IMG/VR virus record: IMGVR_UViG_3300025168_000273
Span: 1-35,824 of that record
DNA from: a virus
Reading direction: 5' to 3' (one strand)
Length of the DNA: 35,824 nt
Shown here: piece by piece, positions 1,737-35,824 of the stretch
How positions within the stretch are numbered: position 1 is the first letter of the stretch
Layout of the letters: every line of letters starts with the position of its first letter
Notes under the pieces: generated by a model
Databases searched by the model: none
What the model was told of the DNA's origin: nothing
What the model saw: only the letters and a program-made list of their open reading frames with translations
Program-made: the position numbers and the translations under genes

Positions 1737-3341
1737 ATGTGGGAAGATTGGGCATTTAGACCTCATCCTGTTTATCCTTTGCCATCAAAGGAGCAGGTTG
1801 AGGTTGCAACATCAACTCCTGAAGGCACCGAAACCTTCAAGGAAATGATGCATGCGAGAGGCGAGAAATTGCGTCTCGAAATTGAAGATCCCTATAATCA
1901 CGGTTTTGAACCCGATCACTGGAAAGAGGCAGATGAACTTCTAGCAAAGCACAGCAACCTCCTTGTCAGTGGAGGAAATCGATCAGGCAAAACGGAATAC
2001 TGCGCGAAACACGTAGTTAAGCATCTCATGCAAAACCCGAAGTCGAGGGTGATCTGCATGCACACCACACATCAATCATCGTTGCAGACTCAGCAACCAG
2101 TCATTCATAAATATCTACCTTTACAGCTAAAAGGTAAGAAGATCAGGAAAGATGTTGAGAACATCAGCTATAGCCAGAAAAACGGTTTTAGCGATAACAC
2201 GTTTATTTTGCCAAATGGATCACAATGCTGGTTCATGCATTATAGCCAGGATCCAAAAGCATTTGAGGGGTTGGAAATTGATTTATGCTGGGCAGATGAA
2301 TTGATCCCTAAAAACCTGCTCGACACTCTCAAGTTTCGTTTGGTAACGAGGGCAGGAAAAATGATCGTCAGTTTTACACCAGTGTTAGGAATGAGTCCGG
2401 TTGTGAAGGACTTTGTCGCAGGTGGTGAGGTCACCGAATGGAGAGATTCGGAACTACTCCCTGATGTGAATATTCCAACGGGACCGAAGGGGAAAATGCC
2501 ATACAAGATGCGATGCAGAAATGAGCAGTCTGCATGCATTTGGTTTCATACTGAGTGGAACCCTTACAACCCGTATGAACAACTGAGGCAACGCTTGCAG
2601 GGGCAACATACCAACGAAATAAAAATACGTGCATACGGTTGGACAGAGTCTGCCATAGGCAATGCATTTCCTCGCTTTGGAGATGGTCACGTAATTGATC
2701 ACACGCAGATACCCAAAGAGGGTAAGAACTTCATGTGTGTTGATCCTGCTGGTGCAAGAAACTGGTTTATGCTCTGGGGAAGAAACGTTGACGATGTCCT
2801 CTACATATATCGTGAATGGCCCGATGCAAGTATGGGAGAGTGGGCTATCCCATCTGAAAAACCCGATGGTTCCGCTGGTCCTGCACAGAGAGCAGGTGGT
2901 GGAGGCAACTCAATCGTTTGGTATAAAAAACTGATCACCGATCTTGAAGATGGAGAAGAAATCTTTCTTCGATTAATTGATCCTCGCGCATGCAAGGCCA
3001 AATCACTTGATGGTCGAGAAATTCTTGATGAACTCAAAATGGGAGAGGCAGGAATGTGGTTTGATCCAGCTTCAGGCGCACAGATCCAGCTAGGTGTGGG
3101 ACTGATTAACGATTTGCTTTATTATGACAACCATCAGGAAATCGATGATGAAAATCGCCCCAGATTATTTGTAAGCAACAGATGCAAGAATCTCATTTTC
3201 GCAATCAAGGAATGGTCAGGAGCAGGAGGAGAAAAAAGCCCAACCAAAGATCCGATCGATGTGCTGCGCTACATAGTGCAGGAAGAAAACTTATTCACCC
3301 CACAAAACACACTAGGCACAAGCGGAGGAGGAAGTTATTAG
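1737..3341 (+). CDS. terL: Terminase large subunit
   Basis: This is the DNA-packaging motor ATPase and headful/cos nuclease. Counting from the ATG at 1737, the Walker A motif GGNRSGKT lies at residues 79-86 and a Walker B-like hydrophobic run plus acidic pair (IDLCWADE) near 181-188. The C-terminal RNase H-like nuclease is suggested by D336 in MCVDPAG, D415 in RLIDPRA and D508 in DPIDVLRY. At 534 residues it is the usual length. An in-frame TTG one codon earlier is possible, but the ATG is preferred. The enzyme acts at the portal, whose gene lies just downstream. The small subunit is not next to it; a candidate sits at the right edge of the window. Confidence 0.95.
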   Translation: MWEDWAFRPHPVYPLPSKEQVEVATSTPEGTETFKEMMHARGEKLRLEIEDPYNHGFEPDHWKEADELLAKHSNLLVSGGNRSGKTEYCAKHVVKHLMQNPKSRVICMHTTHQSSLQTQQPVIHKYLPLQLKGKKIRKDVENISYSQKNGFSDNTFILPNGSQCWFMHYSQDPKAFEGLEIDLCWADELIPKNLLDTLKFRLVTRAGKMIVSFTPVLGMSPVVKDFVAGGEVTEWRDSELLPDVNIPTGPKGKMPYKMRCRNEQSACIWFHTEWNPYNPYEQLRQRLQGQHTNEIKIRAYGWTESAIGNAFPRFGDGHVIDHTQIPKEGKNFMCVDPAGARNWFMLWGRNVDDVLYIYREWPDASMGEWAIPSEKPDGSAGPAQRAGGGGNSIVWYKKLITDLEDGEEIFLRLIDPRACKAKSLDGREILDELKMGEAGMWFDPASGAQIQLGVGLINDLLYYDNHQEIDDENRPRLFVSNRCKNLIFAIKEWSGAGGEKSPTKDPIDVLRYIVQEENLFTPQNTLGTSGGGSY

Positions 3342-3553: not shown

Positions 3554-5573
3554 CCTCTGCGAGGAATATAAACGTGCTGGTGGAACCAGTGCGACACATC
3601 ACTACCAAACCCGAACGGATTCCGTTCGTCTGGCTCGATGGAGAGGACAATCCGAATCTGGTCGCAAGGAGCAACGATACTATGACAAAGAAAAGGTGTT
3701 CCCCTGGGATGGTTGTAGTGATGTTCGATGCCGATTGACTGATCAGTTAGTTGGTGAATTTAAGGATCTCCTTGTCACCGCTTTTAAGCGAGGCACTTTG
3801 AGAGCAGGTGCGACTGAGGCAAACGATGCTGAGTCCGCACAAGTGCTTACCACCCTGCTTCGCTACTATCGAGAGAACCTGCTTCTGCAAGAATTGCATG
3901 AGGCAGCAAGCCTTTTGGCAGATTACGGTCAACAAGATGGTATCTCGTTTCTTCAAATCGGTTGGAAGTCTGAGGACACCAAAAAACGCATACCGATGTC
4001 GCTTCCAGTTTTGCAACAAATGGCACTTGCAGCAGATCCTGAAAGTTTGCAGGCCAGACTCCCAGAGTTAATCGCAGATGAGCTATCAGAAAACGAAGCC
4101 ATTGAAGCGATCAAAGGAATTTTAAACGTCACAACAAGGGACGCTCGCAAAGGAATTAAGAAACTTCGCAAGGGTGAGGTTGTGCAAATTCCGATCATTG
4201 AGCAGACGGTCAATCAACCTGACATTTCTGCATGCCGATTATACATCGACGTTTTCATTCCACCGGAAACAATCCATCTGGAAAATGCTCGATATGTTTT
4301 TCGTCGATACTACATGAGCGAGACAGAACTTCGCTCTTATGGTTTTGATGAAAAATTCGTTGAGAAAGTTTTAAGCACAAAAGACGATGTATCGCACACC
4401 TACCAAAACTCATTTGCGTCATACATTGTTGAACCTGGATTTCAGGATGGCATGTATGAAATTGTTTATGCATACGAACGCAAGCTTGATGAAGATGGAA
4501 TGCCTGAAATCGAATGCACTGTTTTCCAACCAGACCTAAATGACATTGAGGGCAAGAAGGAGACACTGGACTATCTCTCAGGAAAATATCCATTCATCGC
4601 ATACAGGCGAGAAAATGCAGTTCAGAAACTCGTTGAAACGAGAGGACTTTCTGAAATCTGTCACACCTGGCAGACTGAGATTAAAACTCAACGTGACATG
4701 CTTGCCGATCGAGCAAGTCTCTATGTCAACCCTCCCATAGTTCATGCTGCGAGATCCGGTGGTAATTATGAATTCCGGCCTGGATCGACTATCAGTGAAA
4801 TGCGAGCAGGAGAAATCCGCACACTTGATCCACCTAGATCTTCAATCACTGAAAGCATTCAGATCATTGATTACGTCGAACGGCAATGTAATGAATACCT
4901 AGGAAGAATGGGACCAGGAATGGACCCTACTGTGGTTGCGATTCGCAGACAGGCAACTGTTGATAACTTCATGACTGTTTGGTCAAAGGCATTTTCAAAA
5001 ATGTTCCAGTTGATGCAGATCTTCTTGACCGATGAAGATATGGTAAGGATCGCTGGTAAGTCATTAAACATGCCTAGATCCAGCAAGGAGATTCAAGGCA
5101 ACTTTGATTTCCGAATTGTTTTTGATAGCAAAGAATTGGACAACGATTATCTGCTTAACAAAATGCAAGCACTGACCAGTGTCGCACTTCCGAATGATTC
5201 CGCTGGTGTAATAGATCGAGGTGCGCTTGTGACAGAAATCGCAAAAGCCATTTCACCATCACTTGCAGACACGATCGTCATGCCGAAAGTTGGTGTATCG
5301 CAGAAAATTTATCAGGAGGTTATGGGGGATATTATCGCTATGGCTCAAGGCAATGCAGTTCCTCCTAAGCAAAATGATCCTGCTGCACAAACCAAATTGC
5401 AATTTGCAAATCAGATCATCCAATCAAATCCAAAATACCAGGAAGCTTTACAGAGCAACGCAGATGAACGCTTTGTTCAATTGATGCAAGGTTATTTGCA
5501 GAACCTTCAGTTCCTTGTGCAACAGGAGCAAAACGCAATCACCGGACGAACTGGTGTAGCACCCCAACAATGA
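3525..5573 (+). CDS. Portal protein (head-tail connector)
   Basis: 682 residues, placed directly after terL and before scaffold and capsid. Near residue 60 is the FPWDGCSDVRCRLTDQLVGE segment, characteristic of podovirus portal proteins (W-D/E-G-x-S-D-x-R). A helix-rich middle and a Gln/Asn-rich C-terminal helix (residues about 625-682, QFANQIIQSN...LQQ) fit the crown or barrel region. Twelve copies would form the ring at the capsid vertex through which TerL pumps DNA. The start overlaps the preceding HTH gene, and the stop overlaps the next gene by ATGA. The assignment rests on the motif, length and gene order together. Confidence 0.85.
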   Translation: MSQANESLVNLCEEYKRAGGTSATHHYQTRTDSVRLARWRGQSESGRKEQRYYDKEKVFPWDGCSDVRCRLTDQLVGEFKDLLVTAFKRGTLRAGATEANDAESAQVLTTLLRYYRENLLLQELHEAASLLADYGQQDGISFLQIGWKSEDTKKRIPMSLPVLQQMALAADPESLQARLPELIADELSENEAIEAIKGILNVTTRDARKGIKKLRKGEVVQIPIIEQTVNQPDISACRLYIDVFIPPETIHLENARYVFRRYYMSETELRSYGFDEKFVEKVLSTKDDVSHTYQNSFASYIVEPGFQDGMYEIVYAYERKLDEDGMPEIECTVFQPDLNDIEGKKETLDYLSGKYPFIAYRRENAVQKLVETRGLSEICHTWQTEIKTQRDMLADRASLYVNPPIVHAARSGGNYEFRPGSTISEMRAGEIRTLDPPRSSITESIQIIDYVERQCNEYLGRMGPGMDPTVVAIRRQATVDNFMTVWSKAFSKMFQLMQIFLTDEDMVRIAGKSLNMPRSSKEIQGNFDFRIVFDSKELDNDYLLNKMQALTSVALPNDSAGVIDRGALVTEIAKAISPSLADTIVMPKVGVSQKIYQEVMGDIIAMAQGNAVPPKQNDPAAQTKLQFANQIIQSNPKYQEALQSNADERFVQLMQGYLQNLQFLVQQEQNAITGRTGVAPQQ

Positions 5574-5782
5574 TGGACGAAGAACAGATCAAGGAAGCAT
5601 TTGCACAGATCAAGGGATCTCCTGCTGATAAAGCGATAACACAAATCCTTGAGCAATGCGTTCAGGATGGACTGGCAACCGCAATTACCGCAGGTAAACC
5701 TGACAGTGAACGTGCATACGATTGCGGATGGGCAGCAGCAATTTATTCGTTTGCCGAACGCATCAACACTTACAGATCCTGA
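5570..5782 (+). CDS. Small hypothetical protein following the portal
   Basis: A 70-residue mostly helical protein of unknown function (EEQIKEAFAQIKGSPADKAITQILEQ...). No signal peptide or membrane segment is visible. It is translationally coupled to the portal gene by an ATGATG overlap, and its stop is followed at once by a rho-independent terminator. It therefore closes the terminase-portal transcript. A small accessory role in head assembly is likely by position only. Confidence 0.6.
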   Translation: MMDEEQIKEAFAQIKGSPADKAITQILEQCVQDGLATAITAGKPDSERAYDCGWAAAIYSFAERINTYRS

Positions 5783-5785
5783 CAA

Positions 5786-5817
5786 GCACCCCTTCAATGC
5801 GAAGGGTTTTTTTGTGC
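5786..5817 (+). terminator. Rho-independent terminator after the portal operon
   Basis: The hairpin CCCTTC (5790-5795), loop AATGC, GAAGGG (5801-5806) is followed by seven T. Outer GCAC/GTGC bases at 5786-5789 and 5814-5817 can also pair across it. It directly follows the stop of the 70-residue gene. The 129 bases between it and the scaffold start hold only a possible 23-codon ORF and no clear promoter. Confidence 0.8.
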
Positions 5818-5946
5818 AAATTACAGGAATTGCATAAATGAGCAAAACTTCGATTGCCTGTTGTTTCAACCTCACCCTGGATCTCTCAATATTCAGGCAC
5901 TTCGCATAACGCGATGAGCCGAACTTGCTAGGCATTTTGAAAACGC

Positions 5947-6918
5947 ATGAGTGAAACCGAAACGGTTACGGAACCGCAAAATCTGGACAGTCAATTAACA
6001 GACTTAATTGGCGCAATTATCAAACCCGAAGAACAGCTTCAAGGTGAGGCTGCCGAAACTGAGACTGAAGCGTTAACAGACGAGTCAGTGGATGATTCAG
6101 TTGAGGATCGTGAAGAGGTTAATGAAATTGAAGATGATGAATCCGATGAATCCTCGTCTGATCCCGAATGGTATCAGAAGCGGATCAAACGATTCACACG
6201 GCAACTCCGAACTGCGGAGTCAGAACGGGATGAAGCTCTCACAGAGATCGAAGGTCTAAAGGAGAAATTAAAAACAACTCCTGCACCTGAAGCTTCAAGG
6301 GTTACCGCTCAATCTGAAAACGATTTGATTGAGTTGGAAAATCTTGAAAAGCAGAAGATCAAATTTGCGAGAGACCAGAAGCGATTGCTTTCACAGGGTG
6401 ACCTTGATGCAGTTGTCGAAAACATCAAAGAGGCAGGTAAAGATCTTGATGAAGCAAGTGATGAAACACTTGTACGAGATTTTCTTGATGAAATAATTGA
6501 TGATAGTCGAGACAACCTTTCGTTCGAAATCCCAAAGCGTCGAAACGAACTCCAACACAGAGTTCAATTCAACAAAGTTGCAGAGCAAAAATACCCCTGG
6601 CTCAAGGACAAAGGTTCAGAGCAGATGGAGTATTTTCAGGCTGTGATGAAAGCTTCACCTGCATTGGCTAATGTGCCATCAGGCAAGCTGGAGATTGCAC
6701 GTTACGTAACAGGTCTAATGGCTGAGACAACTGCTCAAGAGTTAGTATCTCAAAGGCGAAAGCCCAAAGCACCTAGGACACCTGTTCGTAATAACGCAGC
6801 ACCTGCATCGAAGCCTGAAGCATTGGAATCAATTTCAGCGGCATCAAAACGAGTTCAGAAAACGGGTAGTTCAAAAGATTTGGAAAGTCTTTTGTTGGCA
6901 GGTTTGACTCGTTCTTAA
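5947..6918 (+). CDS. Capsid scaffolding protein
   Basis: A 323-residue highly charged protein. The first 75 residues are strongly acidic (EIEDDESDESSSD). Residues about 77-150 form a predicted coiled coil (RIKRFTRQLRTAESERDEALTEIEGLKEKL), and the rest is helical with a basic tail (QRRKPKAPRTPVRNN). An acidic N-terminus, central coiled coil and basic capsid-binding C-terminus placed just before the capsid gene are the hallmarks of tailed-phage scaffolds. It would fill the procapsid during assembly and then leave or be degraded. No protease signature is seen in it, and no separate prohead protease gene is visible nearby. Confidence 0.82.
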   Translation: MSETETVTEPQNLDSQLTDLIGAIIKPEEQLQGEAAETETEALTDESVDDSVEDREEVNEIEDDESDESSSDPEWYQKRIKRFTRQLRTAESERDEALTEIEGLKEKLKTTPAPEASRVTAQSENDLIELENLEKQKIKFARDQKRLLSQGDLDAVVENIKEAGKDLDEASDETLVRDFLDEIIDDSRDNLSFEIPKRRNELQHRVQFNKVAEQKYPWLKDKGSEQMEYFQAVMKASPALANVPSGKLEIARYVTGLMAETTAQELVSQRRKPKAPRTPVRNNAAPASKPEALESISAASKRVQKTGSSKDLESLLLAGLTRS

Positions 6919-22053: not shown

Positions 22054-25000
22054 ATGAGTGAAAAAGTAAGCATTTGGGATTCGCCCAGAGGTATGATCTT
22101 GCAAGGATCACACACACCTGGATCTGCCAGTGATGACGCAGTAGATACTAGTCTATCAATAATCGATAGAGATCTGTTTTACGATCCCAATGACGAGGAA
22201 CTCGATGATTACATTGCTCAACAAATCAAAGATGGGTTTGATATTGAGGAAATGTTTGAAGCACTCCCTGAAGCATTCTCTGGTATCTACAATCAGATTA
22301 AGGAAACAGTTGCTGCGGTGCCGAACACCGAATTAAAAAAGGTTCCTGGAACTGCCATCGAAGCATTGGCCAGAGGAGGAACAGACACCGCTGATCTGTT
22401 GATGCGAATTGGTTCAGGTATGGCAACGATGGGACTTAAAGTGTTGCCTGGAGATGCTGCGACTCAATACCACAATTTGCCTGAAACGATTAAGTCATTT
22501 TCAAGAGGTTGGTTTAGGCAGCAGAGGACAATTGAACAGCATCGTGCGAAGCAGATGATGGGTGATGCGAACTATTCATACCTTCCATCCGCACTAGTTG
22601 ACAACACGATTGCAGAAGGTCTCACACTGTTTGCTGATCCTGGAATGGTTGCTGGATTCGGTGCATCAACAGCAGCAAGAGCAATGGCACGAGCAGCAAT
22701 CAAGGGAGGCAAGTCTGGCATTGTCAGTCGAGGTTTGGTTAATGCAGCAGTCAAGACAGGTCAGATGCAAGATGCTTTGTTTGGTGCTGTTGGTTCAGTA
22801 GCTAAACTTCCTGTCACCGGATCTGTTAAAGCGTTGCAAGGGGCAACTGAATTTATCAGTGAAGGTTTTGAAGCAGTCAAAGCAAACCTGCCAAAAACAA
22901 CAAAGGGACTGCCGGTCGAAGTTGATATCCCTACCGAAGGCAAGATCGGTTTCCTTCGCAAAAAAATAAACCAGGCATCCAATCTTGCGGATGATGCGAT
23001 GGAACTATCCTCACAAATTAAGTTGCAGAGCAAACGCCAAAACCTGCCATCAGCACTTGATCGCATAGCAAGGGATTCATCTGTAAGACCTGGTGCTAGA
23101 GACCTGGCGAGCATGTTTGATGCGATGGCAAAGAACCCGTTGAGCAGAGGTCTCCTGATCCCTGCTTACAAGACGGGAAAGAGCATTTCCAAAGGTGCTG
23201 CAACTGGTGGTGCATTAGGATTGCTATCCTTTGATGAAGAGTTTGCTGCAAGCTCTATCGCAGGTGGTGCTATGTTTGGTCCCTTTGGTGAATTATCTTC
23301 TGAAATCATTTTCAGCAAAGAGAAAAACAGGCAACAGATTTCAAACTTCGTTGATGATTTCAAAGTAAAACTGGACCCTGATGACCTGATCAACTTTGAA
23401 GCATTCACTGAAGGAAGCAGAGAAGACCAAAAGTTTTTCGCTGGTCTATCCTACATGTTTAAAAACGGTCACTTTCGCAACGGTGAAGGCAACCTTGATG
23501 TTCGCTTTTTGGACGATCAGCAATACCAAAAATTCGGTGAACTCAGAGGTGAAAGATTCGGTGACACCAGTGGCGTGAATTACGTCAGCAGTGGTGGTCG
23601 AAACACAGTGTTAATCAACACCGATAAAAAGAAGTATAAGAGAGAAGCACTGGCGCATGAATTAGGTCATGCGATAATGAAGATGCCTGAAGTGCAAGAC
23701 TCCTTGCAGGTCCAGGACAAGTTATTGTTTGGCGATCGTGTGGTGAAAGCCGAAGGAGGAAAGGAAGTTCTCGCTTTTAATTACGAAGGTCTTTTAAACA
23801 AGGATTGGGTTGATTCGTTCTTCGAAAACTACGTAAACGGATTGGATGATATTACGCAAAAAGAATATCGATCGCTTTCCGCTGAGAAAAAATTTCTGGT
23901 AGCAAGAGACGAAATACACGCTGACTCAATGCGCTATTTCTTTAAGGAGTTTGATCCCGAATCTTTCATACGTGCAGGTAAGGTTAACAACCTGAAATTC
24001 AGAACAAAGGGAAGTTATGAGCGCAACCTCTATAATGGTCTAGGAGGTTCTTTAGCGAGAGGCATTGTTAACAACGTGCTGTTGGCTAGAAACAGTTTAG
24101 GACTCTATGCAGTGCGGAATATGGCTAAGTCAATGGGCTTAATCAAAGACGGCACACCTCTTAAACTTAATGATGGTAGGGTTTTCTCAAACATTTCGGA
24201 AATACTACAAAAGAAAAGAGAGAACATCAGGGCAACAGATGATCCCATTACCGATGTAATCGGAAACAAATGGAACCTTGCTAAAATCAACTCAAAGGAC
24301 AGTCGAGATATTCTGTCATCTTTCCTTCCAACCGTTGACATTATTCGTGATGAAAATGGTGATCCAGTTATACGCAATGGACGCTATAGATTCCTCAACA
24401 AAAGGCAGAGACAGAAGCATGACGCTGAACGTGCGAAGATTGTAAAAGAGGCTATCGACTCTTCTGCACAGTCAGGCGAAAGTCGTATGCACTTGTCGAG
24501 GTTTCAGGAACTTTCAAATGAATCCTACAGTGGCGATTACTTCACACAAGAAGCGATCGACGCAATGATTGCTACCAGCAAAAGAGTTATCACTCCTCAC
24601 TTACTAGACACGATCATGCGTTTAAATGACCGTATGAAGGGGCGCACAACTGATTCGGGATTCATAGCTGAGTTTGTGTATAATCAGGTCACTGAAACTG
24701 GAAAAATCACACCGGACATTACAACGTCTTACAGGCAGATGGTTCCGATGGTTTTTGAAATGTCAAAAACGGGAAAAAACTTTCGAGTCACAGGCATCGA
24801 CATGAACGATTTAATGTCACGCCTGGATCGTTTTGAAAAAGCAGATTTCAAATCGGAACGAGGAAAAGTATTTGATATATGGAGGCAGGATTACAGAAAG
24901 TATGGAGGAAAGGATGCGGACGTAGATCTATCTCACAATCCAATACGTGAACTGTTCCTGCAAGACCTCTGGCTATACCTCTCAGGACTGTCTGAGGGCA

Positions 25001-27807
25001 AGTCTGGGATCGATGCACTAGGTGGGAAGGGTAACACCACCGCAGACCTGCAAACGGTCACTCAGAAACGAGATGGGCTTATGCGTTTTCTGGGTTTTGA
25101 AAAGAAGGATCAGGAAGCGATCAACCCTAACATGTTTCAGGAGTTGGTCGATCGAAACAGGATCATAAAATCCTTCAGGCTTGATCGAATGCAGAACCTG
25201 TCTATTTCCGATCATGACGGGAAGATCAACTTTGGATCTTATCTAGGTGTCCAGCTTAACCGCATGCCTACGCAACGGTCCTCCTTTATGGGAGATCCCG
25301 ATGCAAGCGCAAGAAAGGTCAGAGAACAAGAAATCCCGATCGAGGTAATCACTACCGGAGTTGCTCCTGAAGCAAAGAGAATCCAGGAAGTTATAAATAA
25401 AATCGGAGAACAGGCAATGACTGAAACTGTTGCCGAAAACTTAGGTAGTGATCTAAATGCTGCTTTCAAAAAAGTAGGTGTGGACCTTCAGGTCACAAGC
25501 ATGAAGGTGGGGCAAGGTGGTTATGAGATGAGTGGTGAAATCACTGTTGCGCCTAATATCGTCATTTCTGTCAAAGGAGACGTTAGCCAGGGCAAACTGG
25601 TAATGGACTCTTTGAGTCTAGCCTGGGACCAGGAGGGTGGAAACATTATCCGAAGACCAACCGTTGATGAAATGAATGCAACGGATGTTAAAAAATACAA
25701 TGCAGTCAGGTTTGGAACAGGGAATTTAACTGCGGATCAGAAGAAAGCATTTTTTACAGACCTATATCAACTCAAGGATGAAGACGGTAATAGTTTCTTA
25801 ACAGGATACACAGAGACATCTGAGGGCATGTTCATTGGTGATCAATGGTATGATGAGGGCAACGGAAGGATGGTTAGTGAGTTAGAGCGAAACATTGCCA
25901 ATATTAAATCGATAATCGATAAGCATAAAGTTTCTGGCTTTAGAGTTGAAAAAGTTATTATGGATACCTTTGATCGACCAACTGCTGATGACCGATCGAA
26001 GATTATCGAGGGAATGGGAGACCTTGAACGTGCAGTATTTGACGTTGGTGTTAACCGAATAAAGACTGCTGTGAGAAAGCATCAAACCAAAGGAGATGCT
26101 CCTGGTATGGATGATGCGACGATGGACCTTGTTTACGACCGCAATAAAAAAGGAGAAATTATTTATGAAAAGGAAGACAAACCAAAGGTTCTCAAAAAGA
26201 ATTATGATTTCCTGGATTCGCCTTTAGTGCAGTCAATTATCGATGACGCTGGGGATACTGTTCAAGCAACGAAAGATTTGCAGGCAATTATTAAAAGCCT
26301 GAATACTTCAAAGCTGGATAAACGAAACAAACTTAGTGAGCGTCAACAGAAGCTTTACGATAAGATCGTTGATCAGTATTCAGACGCATTTGCTGAAGAC
26401 TTTGGGCAGTGGAAAGATGACCCTGACATTCTTTCTGCGATTGGTTGGTATAGCGGTGTTGCTAAAAACATTGGTAAACTTATACCGAATGATTCTGACA
26501 GGCATATCTTCCTTGAGTTTCTGGGAGGGACATCCCCAAACACTTCTGTAGAGCAAAACTTTCTTTACGCTATAGATCTATTCAATCGCTGGAAAACAGG
26601 TGGATTGAAAAAGTATGTCAATGCAAGGGATAAAACTTTTAAAGCATATGAAAACGGATCATTGATCGCTCAATCTATCTTTCAAACTGAAATTCCTGTT
26701 TGGAGCAAGACCAAAGGTAAGTTTGATAAAGACGCTAAAGGAAATAAAATTCAGCAGACTGACAAAGATGGAAATTTGGTTTTTGAATACAAATGGAAAT
26801 CCACTCAATCAAGAAACAGATTTATTAAATCTTATGCAAAAGCTGAGTCCGGTAATAAATCGAAAAACGAATACGACCGATCCGTTTTAAAGGCACGATC
26901 GATCGCCAAAAAAATCACTCCACACGATCTTTTAAATGTCGCGTTGTTTGATGCAGGAGCAATTCCGGTCAGGAAGAATGGGGGCAAATACGGAGTTCAT
27001 ACCGATAGAGTTTTTCAAATTGTTGAGGGTGTCTGGGAACGAGATACTGATGCGCCTAAAGCAGTAAACTTTACAGGCAACCTCAAAGGGACCAGGACCA
27101 CTGCAACAATTGACGTTTGGGCAGCACGACTACTTAGACGTATCGGATATGACAAAGGGGTTGGACCCTGGAGGATTCAACCTATGGCTGAGTCTGGCGT
27201 CAAAAACTCAGACTTTTATTTTGGCCAGGATGCGTTTGAGGCAGCAACCACAAAAATTGCAAAAAGGTATGGGGATAAGTTCAAGATGAGTCCCGATGAT
27301 CTTCAGGCAGTTATGTGGTTTGCCGAAAAACGTAATTGGGCGCAGAAGGGTTGGAGTAGGGTTGAAGATTTTGGTGATTTCAGGGATTACCTTTACTCGA
27401 TGCAGCAGCAAGGTGATGGAACCTTAAAGCTTAAAGATGCAGTTCTAGGTTCTACGTCAGAGGACTTTTTCAACTCACTTGAGTTTGATGCAGAGGATCT
27501 ATTAATGCCTGCTGCAACTCGAAAACGAAGAGTTGATCTGGTGGACAAGATTCTAGGATCGGGCCGAAAGATTGAACGTGCCAGGGGCAAGTTGAATAAG
27601 ATGATCGCTCAAGTGGATGCTGCTAAACTGCGAGTGACTAATTCAAAAACGGATGCTGCTAAAAGTAGAGCTAAAGTAGCTTTGGCAACAAAACGGAAAC
27701 TGTCAAAACAGGCGCAAAAATCCCTTGATGAACTGAACGATTCATTGAGAAATATGCGAGGAATTAGGATGACATTGGAAGAAAAGCCTGTTACGTATAA
27801 CCGATAG
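22054..27807 (+). CDS. Giant multidomain ejection/polyvalent-type protein with HExxH metalloprotease
   Basis: 1917 residues, 16% of the window. In order: a helical N-terminus with Ala/Gly-rich segments (near 200-280) and a hydrophobic stretch (GAATGGALGLLSF...GGAMFGPFG, near 385-415). Next, a zinc-metallopeptidase signature HELGH at 535-539, with a downstream acidic/His segment DEIHADSMRYF near 618-628 that could supply the third ligand. A long helical middle follows. Then a C-terminal module (about 1440-1790) with GGTSPNTSVEQN, NFTGNL and ATIDVWAARLLRRIGYD motifs, and finally a Lys-rich coiled coil. It resembles large phage proteins injected with DNA (gp16-like or 'polyvalent' proteins). It may digest envelope or host proteins on entry. 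Confidence 0.72.
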   Translation: MSEKVSIWDSPRGMILQGSHTPGSASDDAVDTSLSIIDRDLFYDPNDEELDDYIAQQIKDGFDIEEMFEALPEAFSGIYNQIKETVAAVPNTELKKVPGTAIEALARGGTDTADLLMRIGSGMATMGLKVLPGDAATQYHNLPETIKSFSRGWFRQQRTIEQHRAKQMMGDANYSYLPSALVDNTIAEGLTLFADPGMVAGFGASTAARAMARAAIKGGKSGIVSRGLVNAAVKTGQMQDALFGAVGSVAKLPVTGSVKALQGATEFISEGFEAVKANLPKTTKGLPVEVDIPTEGKIGFLRKKINQASNLADDAMELSSQIKLQSKRQNLPSALDRIARDSSVRPGARDLASMFDAMAKNPLSRGLLIPAYKTGKSISKGAATGGALGLLSFDEEFAASSIAGGAMFGPFGELSSEIIFSKEKNRQQISNFVDDFKVKLDPDDLINFEAFTEGSREDQKFFAGLSYMFKNGHFRNGEGNLDVRFLDDQQYQKFGELRGERFGDTSGVNYVSSGGRNTVLINTDKKKYKREALAHELGHAIMKMPEVQDSLQVQDKLLFGDRVVKAEGGKEVLAFNYEGLLNKDWVDSFFENYVNGLDDITQKEYRSLSAEKKFLVARDEIHADSMRYFFKEFDPESFIRAGKVNNLKFRTKGSYERNLYNGLGGSLARGIVNNVLLARNSLGLYAVRNMAKSMGLIKDGTPLKLNDGRVFSNISEILQKKRENIRATDDPITDVIGNKWNLAKINSKDSRDILSSFLPTVDIIRDENGDPVIRNGRYRFLNKRQRQKHDAERAKIVKEAIDSSAQSGESRMHLSRFQELSNESYSGDYFTQEAIDAMIATSKRVITPHLLDTIMRLNDRMKGRTTDSGFIAEFVYNQVTETGKITPDITTSYRQMVPMVFEMSKTGKNFRVTGIDMNDLMSRLDRFEKADFKSERGKVFDIWRQDYRKYGGKDADVDLSHNPIRELFLQDLWLYLSGLSEGKSGIDALGGKGNTTADLQTVTQKRDGLMRFLGFEKKDQEAINPNMFQELVDRNRIIKSFRLDRMQNLSISDHDGKINFGSYLGVQLNRMPTQRSSFMGDPDASARKVREQEIPIEVITTGVAPEAKRIQEVINKIGEQAMTETVAENLGSDLNAAFKKVGVDLQVTSMKVGQGGYEMSGEITVAPNIVISVKGDVSQGKLVMDSLSLAWDQEGGNIIRRPTVDEMNATDVKKYNAVRFGTGNLTADQKKAFFTDLYQLKDEDGNSFLTGYTETSEGMFIGDQWYDEGNGRMVSELERNIANIKSIIDKHKVSGFRVEKVIMDTFDRPTADDRSKIIEGMGDLERAVFDVGVNRIKTAVRKHQTKGDAPGMDDATMDLVYDRNKKGEIIYEKEDKPKVLKKNYDFLDSPLVQSIIDDAGDTVQATKDLQAIIKSLNTSKLDKRNKLSERQQKLYDKIVDQYSDAFAEDFGQWKDDPDILSAIGWYSGVAKNIGKLIPNDSDRHIFLEFLGGTSPNTSVEQNFLYAIDLFNRWKTGGLKKYVNARDKTFKAYENGSLIAQSIFQTEIPVWSKTKGKFDKDAKGNKIQQTDKDGNLVFEYKWKSTQSRNRFIKSYAKAESGNKSKNEYDRSVLKARSIAKKITPHDLLNVALFDAGAIPVRKNGGKYGVHTDRVFQIVEGVWERDTDAPKAVNFTGNLKGTRTTATIDVWAARLLRRIGYDKGVGPWRIQPMAESGVKNSDFYFGQDAFEAATTKIAKRYGDKFKMSPDDLQAVMWFAEKRNWAQKGWSRVEDFGDFRDYLYSMQQQGDGTLKLKDAVLGSTSEDFFNSLEFDAEDLLMPAATRKRRVDLVDKILGSGRKIERARGKLNKMIAQVDAAKLRVTNSKTDAAKSRAKVALATKRKLSKQAQKSLDELNDSLRNMRGIRMTLEEKPVTYNR

Positions 27808-28323: not shown

Positions 28324-28485
28324 TTGCACAGAATTTGCACAGAAATACCTGATTTTCCTTGATCTTCCCAACAGGCACCCACTAGCCTGAACCCCATCAA
28401 CAGTATGACCTTAAACCACACAACATACACTCCTAGTATGTGTTACAACAGTAGCGAACGTAAACGCTACAGTGTGGGATATCTT

Positions 28486-28526
28486 GCCGGTGTGGCGAAA
28501 TTGGCAGACGCACAAGACTTAAAATC
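28486..28526 (+). other. 5' half of tRNA-Leu(UAA) (attP core, not a complete tRNA gene)
   Basis: The sequence has the acceptor 5' strand GCCGGTG, the TGGCGAAATTGGCAGACGC D-arm with paired GCG/CGC, and an anticodon arm through CTTAAAA, giving anticodon TAA. After AAAATC the tRNA pattern stops: the 3' anticodon strand does not pair, and there is no variable arm, T-arm (GTTCGA) or acceptor 3' strand. The phage therefore carries only the 5' half up to the anticodon loop. On integration the phage would supply the 5' half, and its promoter, to the rebuilt host gene. Confidence 0.75.
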
Positions 28527-28544
28527 ATTCACAAATCCTAGAAA

Positions 28545-28570
28545 ACCCCTGTATTTGCAGGGGTGTTTTT
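28545..28570 (+). terminator. Hairpin terminator downstream of the tRNA half
   Basis: ACCCCTG (28545-28551), a six-base loop TATTTG, and CAGGGGT (28558-28564), followed by GTTTTTATTT. It is a good rho-independent terminator that would end late-gene transcription before it enters the integrase region. Confidence 0.8.
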
Positions 28571-28574
28571 ATTT

Positions 28575-28614
28575 CTGCACAGTTTTCAATCCCCTTCTGC
28601 ACAGCATTGCACAA
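28575..28614 (+). repeat. Right-arm TGCACA repeats
   Basis: CTGCACAG at 28575-28582 and 28597-28604, and TTGCACAA at 28607-28614. Spacings of 22 and 10 bases place them on one face of the helix. They match the left-arm copies at 28324-28343 in the same orientation. Likely integrase arm-binding sites. Confidence 0.6.
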
Positions 28615-28633
28615 AAAAACTTACAAAAAAGTT

Positions 28634-28686
28634 TGACGGTGTATGTCACCTATGCGAATGTATATCCATCAGGGAGACATACACCC
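28634..28686 (+). promoter_or_regulatory. Promoter-like element flanked by two operator-like palindromes
   Basis: TTGACG (28634-28639) could be a -35 box; an AT-rich TGTATATC lies 19-21 bases downstream, a loose -10. Operator-like copy A, GGTGTATGTCACC (28638-28650), overlaps the -35. Copy B, at 28672-28686 on the opposite strand (GGGTGTATGTCTCCC read from the minus strand), lies past the -10. The inner ten bases of A and B (GGTGTATGTC) are perfect inverted repeats. A regulator bound to both could loop or block the promoter for 28717 onward. The -10 match is poor, so the promoter itself is inference. Confidence 0.55.
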
Positions 28687-28700
28687 TCTCAAACGTAAAA

Positions 28701-28716: not shown

Positions 28717-29070
28717 ATGAATCACATAAATCAATTTTACAAATACGTCGAATCCACTGCAAAAGAAATCTACGAACAAACCCTGGACAAAGAGAAAGCT
28801 TATGAGCTGATCTGGGAACACGCAGATTCGAGCGAACACGTTATCTACTACAGCAAAGCGCATGATCTGGTTCATCTGGTCCGTAACTGGAACTCCAGTC
28901 TCTACGATGAGGCTCATGATGAAGTTGAAGAGTTAGGTGGTGGTGAGTTTCTAGACTACGACACATTTGCGACCAGATTAGCTTTCTCAATGATCCGCAT
29001 TCACCTGTCACAACTTGTCAATGAGTTCATTGATGAGTGTGATGAAAATTTAGAGGAGGTAACCGCATGA
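28717..29070 (+). CDS. Acidic hypothetical protein, first gene after attP
   Basis: 117 residues, acidic, helical, with a pattern I recognise only loosely from other phage genomes (YELIWEHADSSEHVIYYSKAHDLVHLV). It has no cysteines forming a metal site, no signal peptide and no membrane segment. It follows the promoter-operator element and overlaps the lysin gene by four bases, so it is probably the first gene of the integrase operon and under the same control. Function unknown. Confidence 0.6.
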   Translation: MNHINQFYKYVESTAKEIYEQTLDKEKAYELIWEHADSSEHVIYYSKAHDLVHLVRNWNSSLYDEAHDEVEELGGGEFLDYDTFATRLAFSMIRIHLSQLVNEFIDECDENLEEVTA

Positions 29071-29495
29071 TATTTTCAAAAAAAAATCTATGGGTGTATT
29101 GCATCCTACTATTCTGCACAGCAGCACAAGCCAAAGACTTCACTGTTGCACTCACGATCCTTGCAGAAGCAAGGGGTGAAGGTGAGATCGGTCAGAGTGC
29201 GGTGATGGCAGTTATTGTGCAACGAAGCCTTGAGCGTAATCTGAGTATGAAAGATGTCTGCCTTGAGCGGAAACAGTTTTCATGCTGGAACGGCAAAACC
29301 TACAAAGACCTGCTTCCGCTACTCGAAACCCCACAAGCAAAGTTCGCGATCTGGCTACAGGATCACGCACACCTTGTTGACCTCACAGCAATGGAATACG
29401 CAAACCATTATCATGCGGATTATGTTTCCCCCTATTGGGCTAAAGGAAAAAAACCTCTTTATAAAATTCAGAACCACATTTTCTACAGACTATGA
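29067..29495 (+). CDS. Secreted cell-wall hydrolase, SleB-like endolysin
   Basis: 142 residues with a strong ribosome site GAGGAGG upstream. Residues 1-22 are a Sec signal peptide (basic MIFSKK start, hydrophobic core, AQA cleavage). The mature domain is SleB/Hydrolase_2: LAEARGEGEIGQSAVMAVI at 32-50 with the likely catalytic Glu34 or Glu38, KQFSCW at 69-74, then NHYHADYVSPYWAKG. It would cut peptidoglycan glycan strands in the periplasm after export. The gene lies 19 kb from the holin/spanin cassette, between attP and the integrase, so it may be expressed differently from the late lysis genes or act as a lysogen-expressed enzyme. An exact 15-bp operator-like motif lies inside its signal sequence. 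Confidence 0.85.
   Translation: MIFSKKNLWVYCILLFCTAAQAKDFTVALTILAEARGEGEIGQSAVMAVIVQRSLERNLSMKDVCLERKQFSCWNGKTYKDLLPLLETPQAKFAIWLQDHAHLVDLTAMEYANHYHADYVSPYWAKGKKPLYKIQNHIFYRL
29092..29106 (+). promoter_or_regulatory. Operator-like 15-mer C, inside the lysin signal sequence
   Basis: GGGTGTATTGCATCC, identical to both copies at 31436 and 31454, here encoding part of the lysin signal peptide (VYCI). A copy inside a coding region could act as a roadblock or 'stoperator', or reduce translation initiation downstream. Confidence 0.5.
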
Positions 29496-30778
29496 AGATC
29501 AGGAATATATCGAAAAATAAGTTTGAGATCCGCAAGGGATCGTTGGCAGCAACTGTGCTGCTCACTGCTAGGAATGGCAATTGGTATTATCGTTCTCAGG
29601 GATCTGACAAAAAGGTTGCAGCGAAAACTTCAAACAGAGAAGAGGCACTAGCAATTGCAGCAAACAGGATTTTTGACAAGCAACCTGGTTATTTTGAGAA
29701 AAGCGAAAAGGGTGCGACGATGGGGGACATTGTCAAACGATACTGGAAAGCTTATGAGATGGGCGAAATCGAAAACGGAAAAGGCAGACCGATTTGCGAG
29801 CAGCATGCAAAGGCAGTTGTTCGTGAAGCTTATCGGGTTTGCAACACTAAAAACCTTGATCGGTTTTACTTCAAGGATTTGTCTGAAAAACAGGATGGAG
29901 TTTTCAAAATTATTTCGATCCTGAAATCAAGGCACTTTGTTTCTAAGGGCAAAGTTTTACGAGAAGGTCAAGAGTATGTCTCAGCAGCAAAACGATACAA
30001 TGCACAACTGAAACAGTTTAGAGGACTGTTTAAAAAAGGACTTTGCGACAGTATCTACAGTGACCTTGACCTTGATGCAGTCACACTTGCAATCATCAAT
30101 AACCTTCCAACAAAGAAACTAGAGAAGAAACCTGTCAAAACATCACCAGAATCAGTTATGCAAAAAATGGATTTGCACTTCAGCGATCAGAACAACTTCA
30201 CAGAAATCCGAATCAACAGAGTTGGATACAACGTCTACGTGCGATACTGGATCGCAAGATGTTGTGGGTTGAGGAAAAGTGAAATCATCAATGCGAGGCA
30301 CGAATGGATAAGTGAAGGTCCAAACGGATGGACAATCGAAGTTCAAGATACCGCAAATTACAAGGAAGGAATTGTGTCCCTGAGTGGATGGAGCAGCAAG
30401 AGCACAAGATCCAGAAAAATTCCAATACCTGCCTGGTTAGTTATGAAAATAAAACAGAACAAAATTACAGAGAGGGAAGATGAGCCGATTTGCCATCATG
30501 CAGGTAGTTGTAAACTGCATCGATCCTTTGATGAATCTTATTCAAGGGAGTTCAGGAAAGCATATGAAAACTGTGGTGGTGATAATGAATCATTGCGATT
30601 GCCAACACACAATCTGCGAAAAGAATTTATTACCGCAGTTGGAAAAGCTTCTGACCTCTCGACAGCATCTCAGTATGCAGGACACAGCAGCATGTTGACA
30701 ACCGAAGCGCACTATTTTGATAAATCAAAAAATCAAAAAAGAGTAACATTTGATCCCCTAGGACAGTCTTTGTCCTAG
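29492..30778 (+). CDS. int: Tyrosine recombinase (integrase)
   Basis: 428 residues overlapping the lysin stop by ATGA. The C-terminal catalytic domain (about 225-420) has R261 in CCGLRKSEI, a beta-hairpin lysine near K309, H373 and R376 in HNLRKEF, H398 in AGHSS and the nucleophile Y408 in EAHYFD, the complete set. The N-terminus (about 1-60) looks like an arm-binding beta domain, and about 75-200 is the helical core-binding domain. It would recombine attP with a host tRNA-Leu gene, using the arm repeats near 28.3-28.6 kb. It is long for the family, mostly in the linker. Temperate lifestyle follows directly. Confidence 0.93.
   Translation: MKIRNISKNKFEIRKGSLAATVLLTARNGNWYYRSQGSDKKVAAKTSNREEALAIAANRIFDKQPGYFEKSEKGATMGDIVKRYWKAYEMGEIENGKGRPICEQHAKAVVREAYRVCNTKNLDRFYFKDLSEKQDGVFKIISILKSRHFVSKGKVLREGQEYVSAAKRYNAQLKQFRGLFKKGLCDSIYSDLDLDAVTLAIINNLPTKKLEKKPVKTSPESVMQKMDLHFSDQNNFTEIRINRVGYNVYVRYWIARCCGLRKSEIINARHEWISEGPNGWTIEVQDTANYKEGIVSLSGWSSKSTRSRKIPIPAWLVMKIKQNKITEREDEPICHHAGSCKLHRSFDESYSREFRKAYENCGGDNESLRLPTHNLRKEFITAVGKASDLSTASQYAGHSSMLTTEAHYFDKSKNQKRVTFDPLGQSLS
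30758..30778 (+). other. Perfect 8-bp hairpin at the integrase stop codon
   Basis: CTAGGACA (30758-30765), loop GTCTT, TGTCCTAG (30771-30778), perfectly paired and ending in the integrase stop codon. There is no T-run afterwards, so it is not a rho-independent terminator. It may control int mRNA stability, as retroregulatory hairpins do in other phages, or be a protein-binding site. Confidence 0.55.
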
Positions 30779-30857: not shown

Positions 30858-31073
30858 ATGCCGTCAAAAAGAGATCCTAATAAAAAAATTGTAACATTGT
30901 GGCTTGAAAAAGGAAATGCCTCCGAACTTAAAAAACTAGCGGAAAAACGAGGAATTCCAGTTTCAGACTTGATACAAGAAGCGATACAAAATCAATGCGA
31001 ATTATGGGGCATCGACTACAATGAATACGTAGAGTCCAAATATTCCAACCGTAACGAGAAAAAGGAAATTTAA
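30858..31073 (+). CDS. Ribbon-helix-helix DNA-binding protein 1
   Basis: 71 residues. The first strand is KKIVTLWLEKGNA, followed by two helices ASELKKLAEKRGI and PVSDLIQEAIQNQCELWGID, the Arc/CopG ribbon-helix-helix layout. Such proteins dimerise and read operators with a paired beta strand. It is preceded by operator-like copy D, which suggests it controls itself, or is controlled by a related RHH protein encoded at 31478. It follows the integrase, a typical place for lysogeny or excision regulators. The start has an A/T-rich leader without a Shine-Dalgarno sequence. Confidence 0.7.
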   Translation: MPSKRDPNKKIVTLWLEKGNASELKKLAEKRGIPVSDLIQEAIQNQCELWGIDYNEYVESKYSNRNEKKEI

Positions 31074-35227: not shown

Positions 35228-35824
35228 TGTCGGATCTAAAACGAACCTTTTAGAAAAGACAGAAGAGTATGAGTTCAAATCACCGCTTAAAGGGCCAGGA
35301 TCGAGCCTGAGTGATCGAGCCTACAATCAGGTATGCAGAGACCTCATTGACGGGTTCAGCCTCACAATCACTGCTACACGCAATCAGATAGCAAGACAGA
35401 GTGTTGCCAGCATCAAGGCATCCATCTCTGATCGTGTGCCTCATTGGAAGCAATCAACGAGTAGGAAGATGGGTGATCTCATCACTCAGTTCATGCATTC
35501 GCTAGAGGATGACTTGAGTAAGGGGAAGCTGAGTCCAGATAGGAAATCCATTACCATTGGTATTCTCTCAGACAAGAAGAGGGATCTCGACGGTGACAAC
35601 AACATCACTATCACACACAGGAAGTCCAACATTGACAACGACTTCCTTGAAAAGATGGATGATTACCTTGATTCACTGAAGAACGTCACAGGATCTACGC
35701 AACAGACTGATGGTCTTGTGCAGAGCGACCATAAGCCACTGATAATCAACGATGTGCCTGGGGATTGCACAGATTCTGCACAGATAGGGGTGGAGGGGGA
35801 TCAGGAAGTTTCCGGCCCCGAACA
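35127..35824 (+). CDS. HTH protein, possibly small terminase-like, cut by window edge
   Basis: The frame from ATG 35127 (or an alternative ATG at 35106) stays open to the window end, giving at least 232 residues. The N-terminus is charged and disordered (DPESEEENEGDN), then LSDRAYNQVCRDLIDGFSLTITATRNQIARQSVASIKASI, an HTH-like segment, then HWKQSTSRKMGDLITQF and a helix ending in SITIGILSDKKRDLDG. This last motif ('xxGILxDKxxxLxG') recurs in phage HTH proteins encoded near terminases, so it may be a small terminase subunit or replication regulator. A TTGCACAGA/CTGCACAGA pair 11 bp apart lies near its 3' end (35765-35784). Confidence 0.62.
   Translation, partial: MKKTHKKQQKDSRNTSTNTTNLDPESEEENEGDNVGSKTNLLEKTEEYEFKSPLKGPGSSLSDRAYNQVCRDLIDGFSLTITATRNQIARQSVASIKASISDRVPHWKQSTSRKMGDLITQFMHSLEDDLSKGKLSPDRKSITIGILSDKKRDLDGDNNITITHRKSNIDNDFLEKMDDYLDSLKNVTGSTQQTDGLVQSDHKPLIINDVPGDCTDSAQIGVEGDQEVSGPE

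Follow-up and report, generated by a model that had tools for sequence, protein, structure and literature searches.

The window, that is, the whole stretch of DNA analysed here, comprises positions 1-35,824 of the virus record IMGVR_UViG_3300025168_000273 (35,824 bases, 43.8% GC). Terminase and portal genes occupy its left end, and an open reading frame of 1917 amino acids (22054-27807) is followed, in order, by small open reading frames, the attP region, a hydrolase, and an integrase. The hydrolase is of the cell-wall type (Hydrolase_2, PF07486, E 1.1e-12; 29067-29495, +), and the integrase is a tyrosine integrase of 428 amino acids matching PF00589 and the PHROG integrase family (29492-30778, +). 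Residues R261, H373, R376, H398, and Y408 of the integrase, which we take to be those expected in a tyrosine recombinase, are unchanged across three homologues. Downstream of the integrase gene, a small open reading frame (30858-31073) has a weak ribbon-helix-helix match (PF12651, just under the cut-off) and is a possible regulator.

The half tRNA and its flanking repeats

The central feature of the region is a core of 41 nucleotides (28486-28526, +), GCCGGTGTGGCGAAATTGGCAGACGCACAAGACTTAAAATC, that matches nucleotides 1-41 of tRNA-Leu(UAA) exactly in six Verrucomicrobia genomes. Among 84,980 prokaryote species genomes, the exact core has seven matches, six on Verrucomicrobia contigs and one on a related phage contig, and on each of the six Verrucomicrobia contigs ARAGORN calls a complete 89-nt tRNA-Leu(TAA) that starts at the first base of the core. 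The match stops at ordinal 41, having just passed the loop and taken in two bases of the 3' strand of the anticodon stem, so that the extent given in the earlier note, from the first acceptor base to the anticodon loop, was right within 2 nt. ARAGORN calls no complete tRNA in the window, and the 48-nt 3' half is not present there, the best ungapped match on either strand being 25/48 and at unrelated places; the claim that the 5' half, not the 3' half, is carried is thereby borne out. Alignment of the core to host tRNA genes, a check named beforehand, gave exact rather than degenerate matches in the six genomes. Exact copies of the inner 37 bases occur in just 6 of the 320 host-order genomes, once in each, and the core recurs ahead of the integrase, at a matching position, in four further phage contigs: exactly in L004 and L035, with one mismatch in L215, and over nucleotides 3-39 in L216. 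The 41 exact bases, the rarity of the inner 37, and this conservation together exclude a chance match.

Repeats of the arm type lie on both sides of the core. On the left, TGCACAG occurs at 28325 and 28336 (28325-28342, +), about -161 and -150 from the core start in all five phages; on the right, TGCACA occurs at 28576, 28598, and 28608 (28576-28613, +), with the copies at +90 and +112 present in all five phages, the third at +122 in three of the five, and the remaining two having an inverted copy at +104/105. Five TGCACA repeats are observed near the core compared with 0.25 expected, and their conserved offsets mark them as putative integrase arm sites of the arm type flanking the core. The four relatives, whose integrases are 94% (L004), 53% (L215), 49% (L035), and 49% (L216) identical to that of the window, each carry the half tRNA ahead of the integrase and have arm repeats at nearly the offsets of the window. 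Because the integrase has the residues of a recombinase, the TGCACA repeats are present, and the relatives have kept this layout, the site is read as an attP, and comparison of sequences confirms 28486-28526 as an attP carrying the 5' half of tRNA-Leu(UAA).

Several other candidates were set aside. The pattern of GACTTAAAATC, a gap of 35-65 nt, and TGCACAG was found in 21 stretches of viral contigs, with an attP layout only in a relative already known. In L218, whose integrase is 34% identical, the tRNA-Leu half was not found. Matches in "phage" records of Staphylococcus and Enterococcus proved to be tRNA clusters with complete tRNA-Leu genes rather than att sites, and TGCACA arms were rejected as a motif shared with the cyanophages, most of which gave no significant result. 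Near the end of the window contig, at 35766-35783, is a further TGCACAG pair with 11-bp spacing like that of the left arm at 28325/28336, within a 22-nt match of 91%.

The host can be predicted from the core. Two of the six Verrucomicrobia genomes with the exact core are labelled Pedosphaera, and the host is probably a marine, Pedosphaera-like member of the Verrucomicrobia. The further tRNA-Leu genes that were called among weaker matches in these six draft genomes have other anticodons, so that tRNA-Leu(UAA) appears to be single-copy in the predicted hosts. The same integrase/att logic earlier assigned another phage, uvMED G11, to a marine Verrucomicrobia host, reported as the first phage of that group (PMC3861242); it is likened to the window by GC content (43.8% in both) and by the logic of host assignment. 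The L035 contig comes from a bin labelled Flavobacteriales, in which it is the sole match to the Verrucomicrobia tRNA region, and most probably represents phage DNA placed in the wrong bin. L009, from a Flavobacteriales bin, was likewise rejected as evidence of a further host phylum: the contig is a phage in attP form, and nothing else in its bin matches the Verrucomicrobia tRNA region.

Predicted consequences of integration for transcription

The stretch 28325-28613 would thus serve a temperate-type tailed phage of marine Verrucomicrobia as its attP, in which the integrase would act near the anticodon loop to recombine the core with the identical 41 bp of the single tRNA-Leu(UAA) gene of the host. 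When phage and host are joined at the core in silico, attR has phage DNA followed by a full tRNA-Leu(UAA), and attL has no tRNA. The predicted attR junction consists of phage 28440-28485, the core, and TTGCGAGGGTT, and the predicted attL junction of host upstream sequence, the core, and ATTCACAAATCCTAG. We infer both integration and the position of the crossover. The earlier note expected prophages with this integrase to show junctions at tRNA-Leu(UAA); in 388 genomes of the phylum and 320 of the order, the integrase has no close homologue, its matches being weak and partial, and neither prophage, attL, nor attR was found, so that integration is neither proven nor refuted by the search. The lack of integrated copies fits rare or transient integration, or poor sampling.

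As the target is single-copy and the rebuilt tRNA lies behind phage DNA, transcription of this tRNA must start on the phage side, within 28344-28485 or further upstream if the predicted junction is right. Two candidate promoters occur in this region. One, TTGATC-18-TAGCCT (28359-28388, +), agrees with the TTGnnn-16/18-TAnnnT pattern seen in host tRNA promoters, with a score that is not significant; with spacers of 16 to 18, this pattern occurs in 20 of 44 regions upstream of host-clade tRNA genes compared with a 6% background, some near-identical orthologues being counted separately among the 44. Its hexamers are identical in L004 and L215, while its spacer has changed. The other, TTAAAC-17-TAGTAT (28411-28439, +), lies 46 nt before the core, has the best sigma-70 score in the 90-nt upstream region (p 0.18-0.28), and is conserved in L004 and L215. 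No promoter upstream of the core was picked up by a general promoter scan, and a position weight matrix built from host tRNA promoters singled out no promoter in the window. For the promoter in 28344-28485 whose possibility was raised in the earlier note, there are two candidates that L004 and L215 share, but in the window the score of each is no better than background, and the more distant relatives L035 and L216 have no match to them. The broader argument of that note, that the phage must supply transcription of the rebuilt tRNA, is sound, given the position of the tRNA at attR and the single-copy target, but unproven for this phage, neither candidate being a proven promoter.

Between the candidate promoters and the core is a small inverted repeat, GTAGCG/CGCTAC (28448-28473, +), whose stem is retained in L004 and L215 and whose loop varies. 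Beyond the core, an operator-like inverted repeat, GTGTATGTC / GACATACAC, with 16-nt arms that are 88% complementary and with TTGACG (28633-28688, +), suggests a probable early control region; at the same position, L035 and L216 have TTGACA-17-TAC[CT]TT. An 8-mer of the operator-like repeat, ACATACAC (28635-28688), recurs upstream of the core at 28423-28443, and these copies might give a phage regulator a binding site on each side of the core.

On the other side of the integrated phage, at attL, the host tRNA promoter would be left driving a 41-nt stub and pointing into the early/lysogeny region of the prophage, which is the obvious problem of this class of integration. A terminator appears to be the answer. 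Directly behind the half tRNA, a terminator scan identifies a strong terminator of the intrinsic type, with a hairpin and T tract (28539-28574, +; fold -15.9 kcal/mol, z -4.1), which starts 12 nt after the stub and could stop transcription from the host promoter before it reaches the early/lysogeny module. Terminators are present in all five phages (the window, L004, L215, L035, and L216), starting 12-19 nt after the core, and the change of the stem from CCCCTG/CAGGGG in the window, L004, and L215 to CCCCAG/CTGGGG in L035 and L216 is compensatory, with loops that vary. The half tRNA and terminator would then act as one unit, the tRNA being restored on the phage side and the captured host promoter silenced on the other.

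Known systems and alternative explanations

Integration into the 5' part of a tRNA gene is uncommon. In Islander, 3760 islands carry a 3' fragment and 159 of 3919, or about 4%, a 5' fragment (PMC4383910), in agreement with the statement of the earlier note that the 3' half is usual among tRNA integrators. The 5' tDNA-fragment islands have the same geometry as the window, although those are integrated whereas only the phage form is seen here. A close formal parallel is archaeal pTN3, whose core is likewise 41 bp and the 5' half of tRNA-Leu and whose rebuilt tRNA is parted from its original promoter (PMC5495485, PMC8371274); according to a review, this tRNA is expressed from the integrase promoter (PMC8371274, PMC5495485). 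The pTN3 attP differs in lying inside an integrase gene that is split on integration, whereas that of the window is intergenic. T7-like cyanophages, including P-SSP7, S-TIP37, and their relatives, have an attP that consists of the first half of the host tRNA-Leu and adjoins a tyrosine integrase gene, and integration at tRNA-Leu has been demonstrated for S-TIP37 and P-SSP7 by PCR and knock-outs (PMC8776855). Their hosts are cyanobacterial, their integrases are of another lineage, and their attP lies downstream of the integrase gene rather than upstream as in the window. A clear TATAAT/TACAAT box, located 19-20 nt before the tRNA in P-SSP7, P-SSP2/3, L075, and L102, is found only in the Prochlorococcus-type phages. 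The window integrase has no tblastn match in the phage collection, and a comparison of the integrase and terminase gave no near match among its T7-like phages.

Two further precedents do not apply. The pelagiphages were rejected because HTVC011P has a nearly complete tRNA-Leu sequence and the examined part of HTVC019P has no match to the probe. In tRNA-dependent lysogeny of the Fionnbharth type, the core is short and leaves the tRNA unrestored, and the phage itself has a complete tRNA of that isotype (PMC10865867); here, the 41-bp core rebuilds the tRNA, and the window has no phage tRNA. The class of 5'-half attP sites is therefore already known, and the window adds to this small class a member with a different predicted host phylum and with attP upstream of the integrase gene, from an uncultured lineage that probably infects Verrucomicrobia and for which it gives a specific host prediction.

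The terminator is shared by the T7-like cyanophages and the window. With lengths scanned that varied slightly (110-140 nt), a strict scan found a terminator behind 9 of 11 cyanophage 5'-half attP sites (P-SSP7, P-SSP2, SS120-1, S-TIP37, S-CBP2, S-SRP01, S-TIP28, S-CBP3, and L102); S-CBP1 and L075 have imperfect hairpins behind the half tRNA. No terminator was found there in L066, which has an integrase, or in L123, in which no integrase was found. The L066 arrangement (IMGVR_UViG_3300037390_000082, 2102-3223), with the 5' half of tRNA-Leu(UAA) after an integrase gene, is thus an exception. In total, 14 of 18 sites have a terminator compared with 2.4% of random 110-nt windows (P 6e-20 if the sites were independent, which, as the phages are related, they are not). 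This association of half tRNA and terminator was not found described in the open-licence literature searched, within which it appears to be new. Together with the arm sites and the published precedents, it was missed by the earlier note, to which it is the most useful addition, and laboratory cyanophages in which integration has already been measured offer a test of it.

The best explanation as a whole, to which we assign a probability of about 0.75, is that the locus is an attP, that the rebuilt tRNA would be transcribed from the phage side, and that the terminator would insulate the prophage; of these elements, we infer insulation, promoter, and integration. A rather unlikely alternative accepts the attP while having the terminator only end the operon upstream of it in the free phage, the late genes here and the integrase gene in the cyanophages, with no role after integration. 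In its favour, genes of the same orientation precede the half tRNA and terminator in both groups of phages. In nine cyanophages, however, the terminator follows the core in every case, without ever occurring in the gap of 82-120 nt between the integrase gene and the core, and in two phages that have an integrase and in which the tRNA-Leu half was not found, there is either no terminator within 450 nt after the integrase gene (Syn5) or a marginal one 168 nt after it (S-CBP42), which makes a mere operon end less likely. Both roles, ending an operon and insulating the prophage, may also be combined in the same terminator.

That no promoter in the window is significant, that no prophages were found in the genomes of the phylum and order, and that S-TIP37 integrates in only 0.3-1% of infected cells (PMC8776855) would also be expected if the attP were real but the rebuilt tRNA were promoterless and made by read-through from upstream phage genes, or if integration were a rare dead end as in the T7-like cyanophages. 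This reading is nevertheless unlikely, given that the 413 bp of non-coding sequence upstream in the attP region are 92-93% identical across L004 and L215 despite an L215 integrase that is only about 50% identical beyond residue 40, that the hexamers of the candidate promoter are retained, and that with a single-copy target a stable lysogen needs the tRNA to be made. Far less probable is the idea that the 41 nt have no att function and that a transcript of the half tRNA is kept as a decoy or small RNA. In the free phage, a half tRNA followed by a terminator would yield an RNA that is short and discrete, yet the integrase adjoins the site, arm repeats stand at fixed places on both sides, and the match ends just past the anticodon loop, as expected of sites with crossover in that loop (PMC8371274).

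The preferred reading, that of an attP with an insulating terminator, can be extended to the class as a whole, although the extension is doubtful. The 5'-half attP could be a recurrent and self-contained design of phage promoter, half tRNA, and terminator that unrelated phages have reached independently; the lysogen would then depend on a phage-controlled tRNA, which in the lineage of the window the operator-like sites upstream of the core could tie to the phage repressor. If such a design exists, the prophage takes over transcription of an essential single-copy host tRNA while cutting off the host promoter.

Variation in the relatives

The integrase of L215 (IMGVR_UViG_3300025108_000176; 5001-6281) is identical to that of the window (29492-30778) over residues 1-40 (40/40) and about 50% identical over the remainder, while the 413 bp of non-coding attP sequence are 92% identical between the two. 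The N-terminus of the integrase, presumably the part that binds the arm sites, seems to travel together with those sites. The L215 core (4079-4119) is one base off the host tRNA, with TGA in place of the anticodon TAA. A leucine tRNA body with a UGA anticodon would result if exchange took place to the right of the changed base, whereas exchange to its left would produce the normal tRNA; the change could also be a host variant or a sequence error. In the L216 core (3269-3307), nucleotides 1-2 are AT where the host tRNA has GC, and pairing with the host 3' half is possible as A-U and U-G. When this core is joined to the host 3' half, ARAGORN calls a tRNA-Leu(taa).
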